From Mytilisepta virgata (taxonomy: Eukaryota > Mollusca > Bivalvia > Mytilida > Mytilidae): a DNA stretch of 64,000 nucleotides. A program made the position numbers and the translations under genes. The stretch is from assembly GCA_028015205.1 (NCBI GenBank), contig CM051510.1, positions 30,442,580 to 30,506,579 of the forward strand, in the 5' to 3' direction. Numbering within the stretch: the stretch's first letter is position 1; the number at the start of each line of letters is the position of its first letter. The notes under the pieces are model-generated. The model did no database searches. It was given only the letters and a program-made list of their open reading frames with translations, and was not told the DNA's origin. Positions 10,060 to 56,723 of this stretch are shown piece by piece.

Positions 10060-10184
10060 TGCCGACAGATGGCTCTACAGAGTGTTATTTATTGTCTGTA
10101 AGCAGACCCCACTGGGACTGCCTAAGACGTAAAACAAACTTTAAAATCAGAATACGTCACTGAAATATTAGTTATGGGGTCATA
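10060..10184 (-). pseudogene. Non-LTR retrotransposon ORF2 C-terminal piece (left of insertion)
   Basis: On the minus strand this reads TNISVTYSDFKVCFTS, then in another frame a WQ-type stretch (SQWGLLTDNK, HSVEPSVGN). This is the post-RNase H region of I-type non-LTR elements, where conserved words such as YSDF, WQ..W and NKLH occur. It is the direct continuation of the RNase H fragment at 14859-15300, from which it is separated by the 4.67-kb composite insertion. Confidence 0.75.
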
Positions 10185-10645
10185 TGGGTCAAGCCGCGCA
10201 ATTGATTTCCTGTTATAGAAGTCATTCTATTTTATGCTGTCATTAAGTCTGTAAGTTTCGTTGAGACATGGGAGATGGCTCAAAACGATCGCCATACACT
10301 AATACATATCCAGTTAAAATCTCGGGGTTTGATGTCAGTCTACTTTTTTCGTAATTTGACAAATCACGAGCCATGGTAAAAAATTCTCCTTCCGCAAAGC
10401 AAAATGTACCTCTTTCATGCTCCCCATGTAGAATAAAAATTTTCTTGGTTTTCTTTATTTCATCCTTTCAAACTTTTTATGACAAATGTCTCAGATAAAT
10501 ACAGTTTTAAAACAATACTAGTTATTCTGTTATCATGTTTGGTTTTTTTACAGTAGGTCTATATATCATGGTGCAATAAAAAAATTTTTGATGGACTTCT
10601 TTTGTATCCCTCAGGTCAAAGTTCATTGCAGGTCTTGATCCATAT
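10185..10645 (+). repeat. 461-bp terminal direct repeat, left copy
   Basis: From TGGGTCAAGCCGCGC to GGTCTTGATCCATAT. Compared base by base with 14398-14858 it is the same length; the one difference I find is in the A/T run (A7T5 here, A8T4 there, near 10580). It holds no conserved open frame. It does not start TG and end CA with a 4-6 bp duplication as an LTR would. Its own ends are imperfectly inverted, so alone it would resemble a short non-autonomous element. Confidence 0.9.
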
Positions 10646-11288
10646 TGAAAGATGACATATAAATTTTCACTTATTTCTAGTTTCCTATTTGTGCGGATAT
10701 ATCTTCTGATGAAATCTGTGCAATATTTTCCAGATCGGACTGAAAATAAGAAAGAATAAGCATAAATTTTGACATACAGCAATTCCTTTCATTTTACATT
10801 TTAGAACACAAAAACAGTAAAAAATCTAACCTTCATTAATGGCATATTTTGAGCATAAATTAACATTGCTAAATTATTACCTTATAATTAAATTATCAAT
10901 AACATTTATATTTATCATTAAACCTGAAAAAAGGCATATGAAATAATTTTTTTCTATTTTATACATAAAAATAATGCAAATTTTGAAGAAAAAAAAAGAT
11001 TTTTACATCATTTTCATCTCATTTTTTTTCAACTGTTCAAAAAAGGTTAATTTTTTAAAACTGAAGGCTAGATTTGAATAAGACGATTCTAAAATGGGTT
11101 TACTTTTTAAAATCCACCAAGTATTAACATTTCTATAGCCGTTTTAATATTCCCTCTTCCTGTTTACCAGAAATGTGTAAATCTGAAAGGCGCAATAGTA
11201 GGGACTTCATATGAATTATGACGTCACTGCTTTATGACGTCATCTATTATTGCGGTACACAACTAATTTTTCAAAACACATTTCAAAG
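10646..11288 (+). promoter_or_regulatory. 5' region of the Mutator-like transposase with two TGACGTCA sites
   Basis: Non-coding, very AT-rich. Two CRE-type palindromes TGACGTCA lie at 11219-11226 and 11235-11242, 47-70 bp before the first ATG of the transposase; a third lies at 14387-14394, upstream of the endonuclease gene. ATGACGTCA also occurs elsewhere in the window (near 4620, 8068, 9602, 16694), so a promoter role is only suggestive. Confidence 0.4.
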
Positions 11289-13356
11289 ATGAAGGGTGAA
11301 AGAAAAAAACACAAGTTTAAGAAAGGTAACCAAGCCAATCCATTGACGAAACGGTGCTTGGTGACCAAAATTGAAAATCCGGATTTTAGTGTGGAAAATG
11401 AGTTTGCTCCATCTACACAGGTATCTAATGATTCATCTTATCCATCTACAGAATCACCTAGGCAGTCCATTTGGTTGCCTCGCCTTGATTCAAAAGAATT
11501 TAAACTTTATTCAAGACAAAGCTATGACGGTATGTCCTATACTGACCCTCAAATTGAAAATTGTTCAAATTCAGTTAAATTACTGAGACCGAAAAAACCA
11601 GATTGTAATTATCTTGATGAGTTTGTTAATGATGAAAGTATAGAATACAGAACAGTAGATAGGGATTTAACTGTTGTTATGATAAATAAACTGTTTATGA
11701 CTCACAAAGAAGAAAGTCCCTATTGTGAAATACCCAATTTTGAACTTGATAATGAAAAGAAATGGGGTCTTGGTTGGACATGGACGATGAAATGTAGTCG
11801 ATGTTTATTTGTATCAGAAAGTTACAAGCTTTTTCACGAAATAGACAAAAGTGGTCCTGGTCGTAAGGCAGCTACAATAAATCATGCCTTTCAAGTCGGT
11901 ATAACAAATACAAATATTGGTAATGATAGTGCAAGATTAATTTTGTCGTGTGCAGGTATTCCCCCATTAGCAAGAAGTTCTATGCAAAGAATTGCTAATA
12001 AAGTATGTGATAAAATAGTAAATATTGCAGATGATGAAACAAAAAAAGTCGTGCAAAATATGCAAAAAAGAAATGTTACATTAGGTTTAAAAAAATCCCA
12101 TGCAATAAAATTACAAATGGATGGTTCATATCAAAGTTTAAGTATTAAGAGTAGGCATAAAATGGGTCAAAATGCTTCACAGGTTATAGGTATAGCGTGC
12201 GAAAATGAAACTGATGACCATGATGTTATCAGTTACCATTTAATTAATAAGATATGCTGGGTTGGTGCATGGTTGCGAGGAAAAGGTTATAATGTTGAAT
12301 GTCCAGACCATGAAAACTGTACTGCAAACACAGATCCAAGTGATCCATTAAGTGAAAGGGATCTTGGATATGAAACTTGATTTATTAGTAGATTACTGCA
12401 CCACTGATGGAGATGCAAAAAGTGTGTCTGGCCTTCAGGACGCAATGCAATTATTATTTGGTCCACTCTGGTCTGTAAAAAGATTGGCCGACACTGTACA
12501 TCGTGGACAAAGTCAGTTTCGTCAGGGTCTTAAGGCAAAATTTAGTGAAGGTATGTTTCCCGGTGCAACAAAAGCAAAGAAAAATGATATAAAAACAGCT
12601 TTGTCAAACGATATAAAATTGCGGTCATATGGTATAATGAAGGCATTATTTTCTAAATACAATGGTGACAATGAACAAATTTCAAAATGTTTACCCCGTA
12701 TTGTAAAAAAGGTTGTAAATTGTTATAGTGGTAAATGCGGTGATTCATGTAGATGGAGCATAACTCTATGTAGGGGTGGTAAAACAACAAGCTGGTGGTA
12801 CAAATCTATAGGCCTTAGTAGTCATGGCTTAAAAAATGGCTCTTTGATGCCCAATGAGGCAGACAAACTGCTCATAGCAGAATTACTAGAAATGAAACTG
12901 TCTGTCTATGCTCTAGAGCAAATGAAATTTTTCAGCAATACAAATAAATGTGAGTCTGTAAATAGAACAATTTCAACATACCTGCCAAAAAATAAGATAT
13001 TCTCACGCAATGCAATTGGTCGCACTGCTGCAGCAGTTTTAAAGGTTAACAATAATCGGGATGTTGCACTGGTTAGAACACTGAGAGCAGTTGGATGTCC
13101 TCTCGGTAAAAAATCCTCAGCTCTTGAGGCTCTAAAAAAAATACGTAGAATGGAGCTTTATGATAAAGCATATCAAAAGAAATTGGTCGTAAAATTGAGA
13201 AGGTTACAAGCTAGCAAAAAACAGGCAATTAAATATTTGCTTCATAAAGCACGACATAATTATGGGTATTGTAAACACCAGTTAGAACCAAAATTGCATG
13301 ATGAACATTATTCTAAGAAAACTTTTATTCCTCAGCCAGGATGTAGTTATTCTTAA
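11289..13356 (+). pseudogene. Mutator-like DDE transposase, one frameshift
   Basis: Enzyme of the Mutator-like transposase type found in many marine invertebrate genomes; it would cut and join element ends. The first ATG is 11289; the frame stays open upstream to a TTG at 11250. The N-terminus is lysine-rich. A possible zinc-binding region follows (MKCSRCLFVSE), then PGRKAATINHAFQVG and SSMQRIANKV. Catalytic candidates are D278 in LQMDGSYQ (12120-12122), D in TTDGDAK (12406-12408) and E in KCESVNR (12952-12954). CPDHENC precedes the break. A single +1 frameshift between about 12335 and 12380 splits it into pieces of about 363 and 334 codons; both sides are otherwise free of stops, so the lesion is recent. 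It is intronless and ends at TAA 13354-13356. Confidence 0.88.
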
Positions 13357-13413
13357 CATGTTTTTTGTTTCAGGATACAGAAGCATGTTTATGTATTTTA
13401 ATGTTTGAATTTT

Positions 13414-13419
13414 AATAAA
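13414..13419 (+). other. Polyadenylation signal of the transposase gene
   Basis: AATAAA, 58 bp after the transposase stop, followed by T-rich sequence. Position and spacing fit a real 3' end. Confidence 0.55.
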
Positions 13420-13864
13420 GCATGATTGTTTATTTTGTTTCTACTGGAAATGGGATATTGGTACAAGACTTTGGCATAAACACCATCCATTTTTTTTTTT
13501 AAATATTTGTTTTCAGTTTTTCTTATATTGATTTAATTCTGTTTTATTTATTTGCTAGTTTGTTTTATTTATTTGATTATTTTTTCATTTGTTAGGTAAA
13601 TTTCCTTAAGAATTACCTCCCCTACACCATTACAAAATAAAACTCCAGTGTTTCAAAAACTTATGCCAGTTTATCACAAAGTCTTGTACTAAAGGAGCAT
13701 GTGGGTGTGTGGGTGGGCTTTTATCCCATTTTCAGTTTATTTTGATTAAAATATTGTAGAAAGGTTGTATTCTAATTCAGTCACCACGTGGTGTTACATC
13801 ACACATTTTCACGTGGGTATGAACATTTTTTAATCAGATTAAATTGTGATAATGGGAATACATA
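13420..13864. other. Interval between convergent genes
   Basis: Non-coding, T-rich. It contains a near-palindromic ACCACGTGGT at about 13791. It separates the 3' ends of the transposase and the endonuclease gene. Nothing else seen. Confidence 0.5.
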
Positions 13865-14396
13865 CTATATTCTGAGAGACAGCTTGCAGTCTGGAAAAGT
13901 TTCTCCATTAAATTTATGACCTGTGCATTTTTCTGATGATACACAGAACCTACGTGTATTATTGACAGTGTGAGGCTCAATATTTATGTGTTCCGGTATG
14001 ATTCACAAGGGGTTATGACACAGGTGGGATGTGTCTAAATTTTCATTTATAATTAAATTTTTTAATTCCAAAATTTTAGAAAGACGTGCCACATTTAATT
14101 TTGTTCTTCTTCCATTTGGAAAGGTTACATTTAATACCCCATATACATAATTTCTGAATTTTTTTGTCCCACCAGTCCAAATCTGACAAACCCCATTTTC
14201 CCCCAATCTGCTATTTTGACACAATATATCAGAATATTTTCCATAAAAAAGTTGCATGGAGGCAGCCATATTTTTTTCTTATGACAGAAAAAATACTAAA
14301 GAGTTTTACTGACCTCAGTTTCTTCAGCATTTGTTGACAAAATGGATCTACATCACAAATATTCCTGTACCCACTGTTTGAAATCATGACGTCAAA
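13865..14396 (-). pseudogene. His-Me finger (HNH-like) endonuclease with zinc-binding loop, broken
   Basis: Minus-strand gene facing the transposase. From 14269 it reads GVCQIWTGGTKKFRNYVYGV, then NVTFPNGRRTKL and DTSHLCHNPL, then continues in the same frame after a TGA at 14003-14005 (HINIEPHTVNNTRRFC, EKCTGHKFNGETFPDC) to TAG at 13865-13867. The pattern W-TGG...SHLCHNPLC.NP.H...NN.R..C...H matches the zinc-binding loop of His-Me finger homing-type endonucleases; the catalytic His would be in SHLC. The TGA replaces the Cys expected after HNPL, a one-base change. Upstream, DVDPFCQQMLKKLR lies in another frame (14438-14229), separated at an A7 run near 14269-14275, either an indel or a very short intron. 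Role inferred: a nuclease carried by the element. Confidence 0.72.
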
Positions 14397-14397
14397 T

Positions 14398-14858
14398 TGG
14401 GTCAAGCCGCGCAATTGATTTCCTGTTATAGAAGTCATTCTATTTTATGCTGTCATTAAGTCTGTAAGTTTCGTTGAGACATGGGAGATGGCTCAAAACG
14501 ATCGCCATACACTAATACATATCCAGTTAAAATCTCGGGGTTTGATGTCAGTCTACTTTTTTCGTAATTTGACAAATCACGAGCCATGGTAAAAAATTCT
14601 CCTTCCGCAAAGCAAAATGTACCTCTTTCATGCTCCCCATGTAGAATAAAAATTTTCTTGGTTTTCTTTATTTCATCCTTTCAAACTTTTTATGACAAAT
14701 GTCTCAGATAAATACAGTTTTAAAACAATACTAGTTATTCTGTTATCATGTTTGGTTTTTTTACAGTAGGTCTATATATCATGGTGCAATAAAAAAAATT
14801 TTGATGGACTTCTTTTGTATCCCTCAGGTCAAAGTTCATTGCAGGTCTTGATCCATAT
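14398..14858 (+). repeat. 461-bp terminal direct repeat, right copy
   Basis: Same sequence as 10185-10645 apart from one substitution in the A/T run near 14793. The right end CCATAT abuts the non-LTR RNase H fragment at a TA. The left end is preceded by GTCAAAT rather than TA, so this copy by itself does not have matching TA flanks; only the outer ends of the pair do. Confidence 0.9.
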
Positions 14859-15300
14859 AAAGCATACTTTAATATACTTTCTACGACTGTGTTTCCCTTT
14901 ATACCAACATGACTTGGTATCCAGAGAAAAAATATTTCTTTGACCATTTGAACAAGTATTTTATAAAAATCGATAATATAGGAAACCAAGGGATTTTTAT
15001 ATTTCTGACCTTCTATAGCCAGTAAACAAGAAAGAGAATCTGAACAAATAAGAAATTTCAGTTTTTCAGACGTTCTTGAAACTCTTAAAGCAAGAATTAT
15101 GGCTTTGGCTTCAGCAGTAAATACTTAAGTGGAGGATGGAGGAGGCTAGTTGATGCTTGCTGTCCATAGACTGTAGAGGTAGCCACTTTGTCCCCGTCCT
15201 TCGATCCATCAGTATAAAAAGAGTAATGAAATTCAAAGTTTGATTTTATTTCAGCAAAATGCAAAACATCCAATAAATTTCTTGTTTAAATAAGATTTGT
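14859..15300 (-). pseudogene. Non-LTR retrotransposon RNase H domain (right of insertion)
   Basis: Minus strand, reading from about 15290: NFEFHYSFYTDGSKDGDKVA (first catalytic Asp), a frameshift near 15115, then AEAKAI (catalytic Glu), CSDSLSCLLAI (second Asp), and FLWIPSHVGIKGN with the conserved His, ending SILKYALY at the insertion junction. These are the ordered motifs of the RNase H domain in I-clade and related non-LTR ORF2 proteins. The reverse transcriptase proper is not found further upstream on this strand, so the element is 5'-truncated. It continues at 10060-10184. Confidence 0.82.
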
Positions 15301-33164: not shown

Positions 33165-33840
33165 TTACTAGAGGCTCCCAGGAGCCTGTATCACCCACCT
33201 GGACTATGCTCGTCTTGAATGACAGCCTGTACCACTGATGTCAAGTTATAATTGACTCACTGGTTTCAAACAAGAAGATCTTTCAGTGAACTTTTCTATT
33301 AGGTCCTATGTTTAACTAAGTACCACTCTGGCAGCCATCTTCAATCGGATATAATTCTGAAAGAGGACCAACTAATGACCATTGCTGCTAACTTTTGTTC
33401 CAATTAGCCAAGTGGTTTCAAACAAGATTTCTAACTAAATTGCTCATAGGGTCCTATGTTCATCTATGTTCGGCTCTGGCAGCCATCTTTGAGGATTGGG
33501 CGGGTCATCGGATATACATCTAAAAGAGGACAACCTGAGGACGATTACTGCCACGTTTTGTTCCAACTAACCAATTGATTTCAGACAAGAAGATCTTTTA
33601 GTAAATTTCCCATATGGTCCTATGTTAAACTATGTTCGGCTGTGGTGGCCATCTTGGATGACGGACCGAGTCATCGGATATAATTCTGAAAGAGGACCAC
33701 CTAAGGACCATTGCTTCCAAGGTTTGTTCTAATTGGCCCAGTGGCTTCAGAAGTGAAATTCTTTAAAGGAAATATTACGACGACGGACGTCAAGTCATTA
33801 CCATTGCTCATCTGGCCCTCTTTGCCAGGTAAGCTAAAAA
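33165..33840 (+). mobile_element. Interspersed 'CTAGAGGCTC' family, copy c, with 166-bp units
   Basis: From CTAGAGGCTCCCAGGAGCCT at 33169 to GCCAGGTAAGCTAAAAA at about 33838, with GACGACGGACGTCAAG before the end. Three core units carry GCCATCTT at 33333, 33482 and 33648: spacings 149 (a 17-bp deletion) and 166. The unit (GGGTCCTATGTT..ACTA, then CATCGGATATAATTCTGAAA) is homologous to the array at 46985. Confidence 0.75.
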
Positions 33841-36939: not shown

Positions 36940-37560
36940 TGTGCTCTTTAACGTTATTTTTTCCCCGAGTTGTCAGTTGGCTTACTTTTCAGACCGAAAA
37001 CTGTCAAATTGCTAATTTTGCCTTGGTCTGGAACTACTCATTCATTTTTTGTTTCAGTGGGTTTGTTTGTTATTTAATATTGTTTAATATTGTTCTTTCT
37101 TATGTGTAAGTTTCGAATTTTAAAATTCGTTTAAGGGGTCCAATTTTCGGACAGAAATTGGTCAAATTGCAAATTTGGCCTTGTCTCCGGAAGAACTCAT
37201 TCATTTTTTGTTTCAGAAAAATTGTTTTTATATACATTGTAGTATTGTTCCTTATTATGTGTAGATCTGCAATAAGGTTTTGAATTTTGAAATTCGTTTA
37301 AGTTGTCTAATTTTCGGACTGAAAAATGGTCAAATTGCTAATTTGGCCTTGTCTCTGGAACTACTCATTCATATTTTGTTTCAGTGGTTTTGTTTGTTTA
37401 TACTATTGTTCTTCACTATGTCAATGTATGTGTACACGTGCATTAAGGTTTTCAGTTTTGAAATTTGATTCAGGATTCCAATTTTCGGACTGAAAATGGT
37501 CAAACTGCTATTTTGGCCTTGTATCCAGAACTCCTCATTCATTTTTGTCGAGCCTGCGAC
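36940..37560. repeat. Tandem repeat, four units of about 165 bp
   Basis: TCAAATTGC..ATTTGGCC recurs near 37000, 37157, 37326 and 37497, each followed by CT..GGAACTACTCATTCAT, TTTTGTTTCAG, GTATTGTTCTT and AAATTCGTTTAAG. Unit spacing is 157-171 bp. No relation to the 166-bp family by sequence. Confidence 0.75.
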
Positions 37561-46732: not shown

Positions 46733-48010
46733 CTAGAGGCTCTCAAGAGCCTGTGTCGCTCACCTGTATCTAATGTGATTTTGGAAATTATGTAAAATTA
46801 TATAATGATTGAGACCAAGATTGGTTTAATTTGACACAGTATTTAAAATTAAAAACAGGCCATCTTAGTGTAGTCTTACAATAGCTACTGAAGATATCTT
46901 ATCATTATTATTTTTGAATATGTGGTCAAGTTGTGACCATTCAGAATTTTTTTTACAATTTTCTGATAGACTTCTAAACATCTTGGATGATGGATCGGCA
47001 ACAAAGTAACAACACTTGGTCAGCTCCTCATAAGGAACATTCATGCTATGTTTTGTTAGATTCCATTCAGTGGTTCTCTAAAAGAAGTCATTTGTATGCA
47101 TTTCCCATAGGGTCCAATGTTAAACTTAGTCCCCCGCTGGCGGCCATCGTGGATGATGGATCGGCTACAAAGTAACACAACTTGGTCAGCACCTCATAAG
47201 GAACATTCATGCCAGATTTAGTTTCATTCCATTCAGTGGTTCTCTAAAAGAAGTCATTTGTATGCATTTCCCATAGGGTCCTATGTTAAACTAAGTTCCC
47301 CGCTGGCGGCCATCTTGGATGATGGATCAGCTACAAAGTAACAACACTTGGTCAGCACTTCATAAGGAACATTCATGCCAGATTTAGTTTCATTCCATTC
47401 AGTGGTTCTCTAAAAGAAGTCATTTGTATGCATTTCCCATAGGGTCCTATGTTAAACTAAGTTCCCCGCTGGCGGCCATCTTGGATGATGGATCAGCTAC
47501 AAAGTAACAACACTTGGTCAGCACTTCATAAGGAATATTCATGCCATGTTTGGTTTCATTCCATTAAGTGGGTCACTAAAAGAAGTCATTTGTATGCATT
47601 TCCCATAGGGTTCTATGTTAAACTAAGTCCCCCGCTGGCGGCCATCTTGGATTATGGATCGGCTACAAAGTAACAATACTTGGTCAGCACCTCATAAGGA
47701 ACATTCATGCCATGTTTGGTTTCATTCCATTCAACAGTTCTCTAAAAGAAGTCATTTGTATGCATTTCCCATAGGGTTCTATGTTAAACTAAGTCCCACG
47801 CTGGCGGCCATCTTGGATTATGGATCGGCTACAAAGTAACAACACTTGGTCAGCACCTCATAAGGAACATTCATGCCATGTTTGGTTTCATTCCATTCAG
47901 TGGTTCTCTAGAAGAAGTTCAAAATGTAAAATGTTCACGACGACGACGGACGACGACGGACGCCAAGTGATGAGAAAAGCTCACTTGGCCCTTCGGGCCA
48001 GGTGAGCTAA
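46733..48010 (+). mobile_element. Interspersed 'CTAGAGGCTC...GTGAGCTAAA' family, best copy (f)
   Basis: Complete by its ends: CTAGAGGCTCTCAAGAGCCT followed by GTGTCGCTCACCTG at the left; GACGACGGACGACGACGGAC, then GCTCACTTGGCCCTTCGGGC and CAGGTGAGCTAAA at the right. Both termini contain strong dyads. TAAA flanks both sides, a possible short duplication. The centre is the 166-bp array (next entry). No protein is encoded; the open frames of about 61 codons in it are translations of the array. Confidence 0.75.
46985..47925 (+). repeat. 166-bp tandem array, six units
   Basis: GGAT at the unit start (GGATGATGGATCGGCTACAA) occurs at 46985, 47151, 47317, 47483, 47649 and 47815: every spacing is exactly 166 bp, with the last unit cut short. 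Unit landmarks are AACACTTGGTCAGCACCTCA, CATTCATGCCATGTTTGGTT and CCCATAGGGTCCTATGTTAA. Units differ by a few percent. Confidence 0.92.
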
Positions 48011-55213: not shown

Positions 55214-56723
55214 TACTCTCTCAAAAAAGAAACGCAACATCAGATTATCTTTTTGAAATATTATTTTTCCGGACAAATAACCAATAAATATCAAAATATA
55301 TGTACACATGATCATAATTACACCTTCATAAAAAGTTTCCAGGTACAATCATTTAAATTCATCCACCCGTAAACGACTTTGGTCGCAATCTGGGACACCC
55401 TACGATTTACGCATTGCCAAAAACTGGGTCGACTTTCACGTGCAAATCATGGGTTATTTTTTAGCTCAGTCAGTCGGTATAAAAACCCGGTATTTCTTGT
55501 CATGAATGCATTCGTAAAATAAAATTCTGATGAGGTGACGCTATGCCAAGGTTAGACGCTGCTACCCGGAATATCGCTATCGGACGACTAGAGGCCGGAG
55601 AATCACAGAATGCTGTTGCTGTAACGTACAATGTTCATCGTAGCACAATTTCACGCCTTTGGGGACGCTACCTGCAGCTTGGTACTACGACAGATCGGCC
55701 ACGTTCAGGGCGCCCGCGTGTTACAACCAGGGCGCAAGATCGTTACATCAGACTTTTCCATCTGCGGAATAGGACTATTGCTGCAACAGAAACAGCTGTA
55801 AACGTCCCTGGGTTGCGCCGTATATCAGCACAGACAGTACGCAATCGGTTACGTTCTCATGGATTGAGGGCAAGAAGACCTTACTTTGGAGCAACACTGA
55901 GACGCCAACACCGCCGAGATGGTGTACTACAGTTCGTGCATGGAATTTACAGAACTGGAGAAGAGTATGGTTCAGCGATGAGTCACGTTTTCAACTGGAA
56001 AAGCGAGATGGTCGCATACGTGTGTATAGGCGCCGAAACGAACGTTTTGCGCAAAACTGTGTTGTGGAGAGAGACAATTTTGGCGGAGGCAGTGTTATGA
56101 TGTGGGCCGCTATTTCTTATGCCAGAAACACACAGCTGATACATATCCAAGGCAATCTGAACGCTGTTATGTATAGAGACGAAATTTTACGACCTCATTT
56201 ATTGCCCGTAATTGACATTCGGAGAGAAATTTTTCAGCACGACAATGCCCGACCACATACAGCACGTGTAACAGTAGACTTTTTAGAACAACAGAATGTC
56301 AATGTGATCCGTTGGCCGTCACGATCACCCGATCTTAATCCAATTGAACATTTGTGGGATGAAGTGGATCGGCGCGTGCGCCAACAACCACCACCGCAAA
56401 ATCTGCAACAATTACAGCAGGCACTTCAGTTTGAGTGGCAAAGGATACCGCGTGTTCGAACTCAGCGTTTAATTCAATCTATGCCAAGAAGAGTCGGGGC
56501 TGTGTTACAAGCAAATGTTGGACATACCAGATATTGACAATTGATGAGTGATTTATTGACAATATGTGACAAACTGTGATATTCCAAGGTAAAAGAACTC
56601 ATGAACAAGAAGTGTGCCAATTTTTGCATTCCTGTGTAAATTATTTATATCATAAATTATGAAAATAATATATGAAGTAAATTTCCTATTTTCTGTATGT
56701 TGCGTTTCTTTTTTGAGAGAGTA
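55214..56723 (+). mobile_element. Tc1-like transposon, complete, nested
   Basis: A 1.5-kb element with 27-bp exact terminal inverted repeats TACTCTCTCAAAAAAGAAAC plus GCAACAT, flanked by TA duplications (55212-55213, 56724-56725). It contains one transposase gene with a frameshift. It lies inside the CACGGTG element, so it is the younger of the two. Confidence 0.93.
55543..56537 (+). pseudogene. Tc1-like DD34E transposase, one frameshift
   Basis: Cut-and-paste transposase. The N-terminal helix-turn-helix domains read NAVAVTYNVHRSTISRLWGR, the GRPR hook SGRPRVTT, then ISAQTVRNRLRSHGLRARRP. A one-base loss near 55905-55925 moves the frame; on the new frame follow VWFSDESRF (D at 55977-55979), GGGSVMMWAAI, QHDNARPHTA (D at 56241-56243) and SPDLNPIEHLWDE (E at 56346-56348). 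The second Asp and the Glu are separated by 34 residues, the Tc1 spacing. Total about 331 codons, the usual length. ATG 55543 is the only reasonable start. With otherwise complete motifs and perfect ends the copy is young but not autonomous. Confidence 0.92.

Follow-up and report, generated by a model that had tools for sequence, protein, structure and literature searches.

Mutator-type DNA transposons (MuDR, or Mutator-like elements, MULEs) canonically have long inverted ends and generate target duplications of 8–11 bp. Among Kolobok DNA transposons, the KolobokP lineage has been reported in molluscs and six further phyla, and MuDR and Kolobok are grouped among superfamilies that share a C/DxxH motif (Kojima & Bao, 2022, Mob DNA 13:24, PMC9587614). 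KolobokP elements consist of an internal region (INT) between long terminal direct repeats (LTDRs) of about 450 or 660 bp, which have 5′-RR..YY-3′ ends and short inverted ends of up to 18 bp (11–18 bp in oyster families); target duplications are of 3–4 or 4–5 bp, and solo LTDRs, (LTDR-INT)n-LTDR arrays and non-autonomous versions are described (PMC9587614). Their genes encode a DDD/E transposase on the plus strand and, downstream on the complementary strand, a His-Me nuclease, and the published model combines transposition with nuclease-induced unequal crossover (PMC9587614). Here we analyse a unit of this layout at positions 10186–14854 of a 64,000-nucleotide stretch of the bivalve Mytilisepta virgata (assembly GCA_028015205.1, contig CM051510.1, positions 30,442,580–30,506,579 of the forward strand), hereafter the window.

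We are confident that this unit is one KolobokP copy (LTDR-INT-LTDR, with a transposase gene, a convergent His-Me nuclease gene and a 4-bp ATAT target duplication), in which the transposase would by prediction mobilise either the entire unit or a single LTDR, the nuclease being the likely trigger of exchange between LTDRs. We favour this reading because the published description (PMC9587614) matches the unit in its layout, the order of its genes, the length class of its LTDRs and their terminal RR..YY. Assigned through published layout, gene order and motifs, the unit is probably another family within KolobokP. As that lineage is already published with the same layout (PMC9587614), the architecture is not an undescribed one, which the initial annotation had considered possible; a striking observation is instead placed in a lineage described in 2022, with its true ends fixed.

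Ends, junctions and target site of the unit

The locus had been recognised from two 461-bp direct repeats (10185–10645 and 14398–14858) around a convergent gene pair, read together as a mobile element that has long direct repeats at its ends, encodes two enzymes and lies within a non-LTR (non-long-terminal-repeat) element. All of this holds: the repeats differ at one position (repeat position 401, T/A) and extend no further on either side, the genes converge, and copies with the same ends lie elsewhere in the genome. Matching outer flanks had been described as a shared TA; the flanks do match, but the match is ATAT, with TA as its middle, and the LTDRs themselves measure 456 bp, which puts them in the shorter of the two KolobokP length classes. 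Next to the target duplications, the LTDRs end in GG..CC, which fits the RR..YY of KolobokP.

Other copies were sought with the LTDR in the window’s own assembly (1.03 Gb, 109 contigs), where 40 of 1461 first-look candidates were scored and all 40 matched. We examined 38 of these 40 places (leaving out C7:13333302 and C5:21436264), which represent 26 insertions, and added three insertions chosen by their INT, giving 29. An exact 4-bp ANNT duplication lies beside GGG..CC in every one of the 25 insertions with both outer ends fetched, within the 3–5 bp range of KolobokP; the exceptions are L041, which belongs to an array, L045, with a truncated INT, L049, with an interrupted INT, and L029, of which one end was fetched. 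The TTAA duplication of classical Kolobok was never seen in the 25 readable insertions, all of which were ANNT. This amounts to a symmetric preference, while the text of PMC9587614 states no strong target preference for KolobokP. The published duplications are of 3–4 or 4–5 bp (PMC9587614), whereas the readable duplications of the present family are all ANNT.

A search for further repeat-flanked loci, as the initial annotation had advised, yielded 17 multi-LTDR insertions with both ends visible, and all 17 share the same element ends, each with its own matching flanks. Neither chance nor an assembly fault at a single locus therefore explains the structure, and an artefact at the window locus is unlikely, because independent copies elsewhere show the same arrangement.

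Inner junctions are invariant with respect to the target site and outer duplications vary between copies. This bears on a proposal that two solo 456-bp elements inserted independently around a gene pair in a one-off capture. An LTDR can indeed stand alone, since five of the 26 insertions behind the 38 examined places are solo LTDRs with their own 4-bp duplications, as described for KolobokP. However, the inner junctions (CC followed by ATATTGAAA, and CAA[A/G]TT followed by GGG) recur in other copies, constant bar one or two bases that separate the families, while the duplications at the outer ends vary from copy to copy and match each other within a copy; nor would segmental duplicates account for this, as the outer flanks of copies differ. 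Such a composite is excluded at the window locus, and we give it next to no credence. Bacterial composite transposons, as discussed in PMC9587614, resemble the unit in having two end-units around a cargo that occur alone or together; in KolobokP, in contrast, the enzymes sit in the middle rather than in the end-units and the layout is family-wide.

The target is a minus-strand non-LTR element, whose RNase H part is split by the unit. Once the insert is taken out and a single ATAT retained, the minus-strand frame runs open through the junction, as had first been described, and reads ...ILKYALYDPITNISVTYSDFKVCFTS, with a stop 19 residues past the junction Y. Besides the window, a search with the right flank returned 39 scored matches at 87–89% (of 1520 first-look candidates). 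Three of the 39 were fetched (L081–L083), and all three are uninterrupted, with a single ATCT in place of the window’s ATAT pair and a frame that runs through the insertion point (...AKDALDDPIT[N/I]MSVPYSDFK).

Table 1. Coordinates of the unit, its genes and its target site in the window.
Feature	Positions	Strand	Basis and remarks
Left target site duplication, ATAT	10182..10185	.	Equals 14855–14858; single 4-bp ATCT at that place in 3/3 uninterrupted non-LTR copies
Left LTDR, 456 bp, GGGTCAAG..CTTGATCC	10186..10641	+	Repeat comparison; solo copies with own duplications elsewhere
INT, 3757 bp, start ATATTGAAA, end GTCAAATT	10642..14398	+	Inner junctions shared with L031 and L032
Kolobok-type DDD/E transposase gene (PF20700)	11289..13356	+	Frameshifted in overlap 12352–12380; lacks 20 nt present in L031 and L032
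I-PpoI-like His-Me (His-Cys box) nuclease gene	13868..14278	-	In-frame TGA at 14003–14005; Cys there in L031 and in the relative P0001
Right LTDR, 456 bp, one mismatch to left LTDR	14399..14854	+	Repeat comparison
Right target site duplication, ATAT	14855..14858	.	Matches left flank
RNase H part of interrupted non-LTR retroelement (continues left of 10182)	14859..15124	-	PF00075 E=0.0055, below its cut-off; 39 other scored genome matches

Transposase and nuclease genes

Three examined copies have the long INT: that of the window (4669 bp), L031 on contig C12 (4693 bp) and L032 on contig C1 (4693 bp). Both genes are open in L031 and both are broken in L032 and in the window, and for this reason the window copy would need the enzymes of another copy to move. 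Its transposase is split by the frameshift into two overlapping plus-strand frames (11238–12380 and 12352–13356), while that of L031 is a single open frame of 712 codons (stop to stop). Besides the two genes, no frame longer than 106 codons that might encode a reverse transcriptase, as expected of a long-terminal-repeat (LTR) type of element, was found in the three long copies, smaller frames not having been scanned against Pfam.

Full-length named protein relatives come from Mytilus edulis (65–68% identity over 88–92% of the query). In an alignment of the L031 protein with 13 relatives, selected from 86 matches, D295, C340, C355, H358, C361, D397, D399, D425, H428, C502, C511, C518 and E579 are invariant. 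With residue roles assigned from the description in PMC9587614, these columns supply, in all 14 proteins, the DDD/E triad, the C/DxxH motif, the zinc finger before the last E and the CCHC after the first D that characterise KolobokP. The Pfam name of PF20700 (E=5.9e-60), ‘Mutator-like transposase’, is a point of likeness to MuDR and MULEs and agrees with the initial assignment to that group. It also speaks for a rival reading, in which a MULE with the canonical mechanism carries its direct repeats incidentally. Against this stand the 4-bp duplications in all 25 readable insertions and the lack of long inverted ends, together with the same CCHC and zinc motifs in a lineage placed within Kolobok by Kojima and Bao (PMC9587614). 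Duplications of 8–11 bp, other boundaries bearing them and long inverted ends were looked for among the insertions and LTDR ends examined and were not found. We regard a MULE as very improbable and the assignment to Mutator as superseded by the Kolobok signature.

Downstream of the transposase on the complementary strand, as in KolobokP, lies the nuclease gene. In the window its frame holds a TGA, and the part up to the stop (14278–14006) alone matches PF05551 with E=0.11, below the cut-off; the L031 homologue is an open frame of 137 codons (stop to stop) with E=1.3e-12. Its likeness to the His-Cys box homing endonuclease I-PpoI consists of PF05551 and an aligned SHLCHN..C..P.H....E....N stretch (E=0.48, alone not significant); unlike I-PpoI, the protein here is encoded by a transposon and not in a group I intron.

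Across the genome, the C-terminal frame of the window’s transposase gave 44 matches that merge to 31 loci, and the nuclease 26 matches that merge to 24 loci. A transposase match lies within 2.5 kb at 18 of the 24 nuclease loci, convergent in all 18, leaving six nuclease and 13 transposase loci without a partner match. The pairing is likely old, to judge from the protein sequences, because identity between a paired transposase and the query can be as low as 26%.

Two regions, C11:45253706-45331094 and C70:3543192-3623265, each contain two gene pairs of KolobokP type, similarly spaced and with the same scores, 76 kb apart on C11 and 79 kb apart on C70. The C70 pairs may be second assemblies (an alternate haplotype) of the C11 pairs at 45.25 and 45.33 Mb, in which case they could give allelic comparisons. 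Since two of the 18 pairs may thus be duplicates, the independent pairs may number 16.

Arrays and likeness of LTDR pairs

In a non-autonomous family, the LTDRs share about 91% identity with those of the window and the INT measures about 1.7 kb. Searching with this INT produced 352 first-look candidates; 40 were scored, and all of these matched. No nuclease match was found in the non-autonomous copies. Tandem arrays that share LTDRs, as reported for KolobokP, are also present: L033 and L035 are (LTDR-INT)2-LTDR with matching outer duplications, L041 is part of an array, and at C3:24828163-24838220 matches lie about 2160 bp apart, where a longer array is suggested by spacing alone. The two INTs of L035 (1708 and 1712 bp) show no differences in 1543 gap-free columns, against at least 11 to any other of 17 INTs, and a 500-base piece of INT upstream of L041 shows none to its neighbour, against at least eight to others. 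Alike array units of this kind fit local duplication, as PMC9587614 proposes. No excision footprint was readable at L045, whose INT is cut short at 1500, or at L049, whose INT is interrupted.

The two LTDRs of a copy also tend to share variants. From a family that may number some hundred copies, we compared 16 non-autonomous pairs, 13 from the LTDR search (including L041, the last pair of an array) and three from the INT search, with L033, L035, L045 and L049 left out. Six variants are found in both LTDRs of the copy that carries them (three of the six recur in a second copy), 11 substitutions and two deletions affect one LTDR of one copy, and among the 16 pairs no variant is common to different copies on one side only. 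One-sided shared variants would be expected if left and right LTDRs were inherited faithfully and separately, and their absence therefore suggests homogenisation. When left and right LTDRs were re-paired at random, 0 of 20000 shuffles gave a difference sum as small (p about 5e-5). The three long copies differ between their LTDRs at 1, 1 and 6 positions, against 3 to 15 between copies. This pattern in the aligned repeats suggests that LTDR pairs are homogenised, via a single-LTDR intermediate or gene conversion, one repeat of a copy likely being copied onto the other. Rates, including the low variation of LTDRs relative to INT, are not interpreted, because 13 of the 16 copies were picked as best-scoring LTDR matches; LTDR differences set against INT divergence as a clock gave a Spearman coefficient of 0.34 (p 0.26, 13 copies).

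We found no treatment of LTDR homogenisation in PMC9587614, whose main text has neither ‘homogen-’ nor ‘concerted’ and uses ‘conversion’ once, for homing enzymes; the sharing of variants within a pair appears to go beyond the account given there. The published KolobokP model thereby gains a test, in that the two LTDRs of a copy evolve together.

One mechanism would run as follows. The substrate of the transposase would be the short inverted ends (GGGTCAAG/CTTGATCC), either those of the outer LTDRs or those of a single LTDR; the nuclease would cut within an LTDR or at abutted LTDR ends; and repair from the other LTDR, or passage via a single-LTDR circle, would keep the pair alike and yield arrays and solo LTDRs. 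We offer only tentatively, and with some doubt, the proposal that KolobokP rebuilds its LTDR pair from a single LTDR in each round, by a one-LTDR circle or nuclease-induced repair, so that a DNA transposon lacking reverse transcriptase might retain identical ends and an age clock in the manner of LTR elements. Conversion between neighbouring repeats takes place in most genomes, and ordinary gene conversion or unequal crossing-over between the LTDRs of a KolobokP copy, requiring neither a special intermediate with a single LTDR nor any involvement of the nuclease, would fit the same LTDR data; the non-autonomous copies, which have no nuclease match, show the likeness too. Such ordinary exchange, a possibility of real weight that still falls short of probable, would leave the conserved gene pair (at 18 of the 24 nuclease loci) without a role. 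With an open-frame copy, a non-autonomous family and arrays, this genome is a good setting in which to study the role of a homing-type nuclease inside a transposon.

Several observations count against reading the unit as a KolobokP copy with a nuclease that acts on mutually homogenised LTDRs. Its inverted ends are short and imperfect (seven of the eight outermost bases match, and eight of the first 12), weaker than the 11–18 bp given for oyster families. The letters read as a 4-bp duplication can equally be read as a 2-bp one (NN, with T..A as the ends of the element), in line with the 2-bp TA duplication first proposed; we prefer 4 bp because the flanking A and T then need no coincidental match to the element ends, and this length also fits Kolobok. 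A PDB sequence search with the nuclease was not significant (I-PpoI at E=0.48, after an unrelated protein at E=0.46), AlphaFold2 predictions for two nuclease sequences gave a pLDDT (predicted local distance difference test score) of 35 and the model was not used, and inside the LTDR no semi-palindrome rose above shuffles as a candidate nuclease site. Among the arrays, the two INTs of L033 are no closer to each other (five differences) than to those of L038 and L039 (four to five), which makes L033 uninformative on local duplication, and two of eight informative LTDR columns differ among its three LTDRs. In the pair C11a, the right LTDR carries two deletions and 28 columns differ from the left, 26 of them in the deletions.

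Other features of the LTDR and window

A 74-codon minus-strand frame within the LTDR (window 10246–10467) was considered as a hidden gene and rejected: it is open in the three long copies and contains stops in the non-autonomous LTDR. LTDR length itself is constrained.

Away from the unit, positions 55534–56537 of the window encode a Tc1/mariner-like transposase spread over two frames that overlap (PF01498 E=1.2e-6, narrowly below its cut-off; PF13358 E=7.8e-17), likely a broken copy. Tandem arrays lie at 46979–47918, 33344–33729 and 36986–37546, with periods of 166, 166 and 168 bp, respectively.

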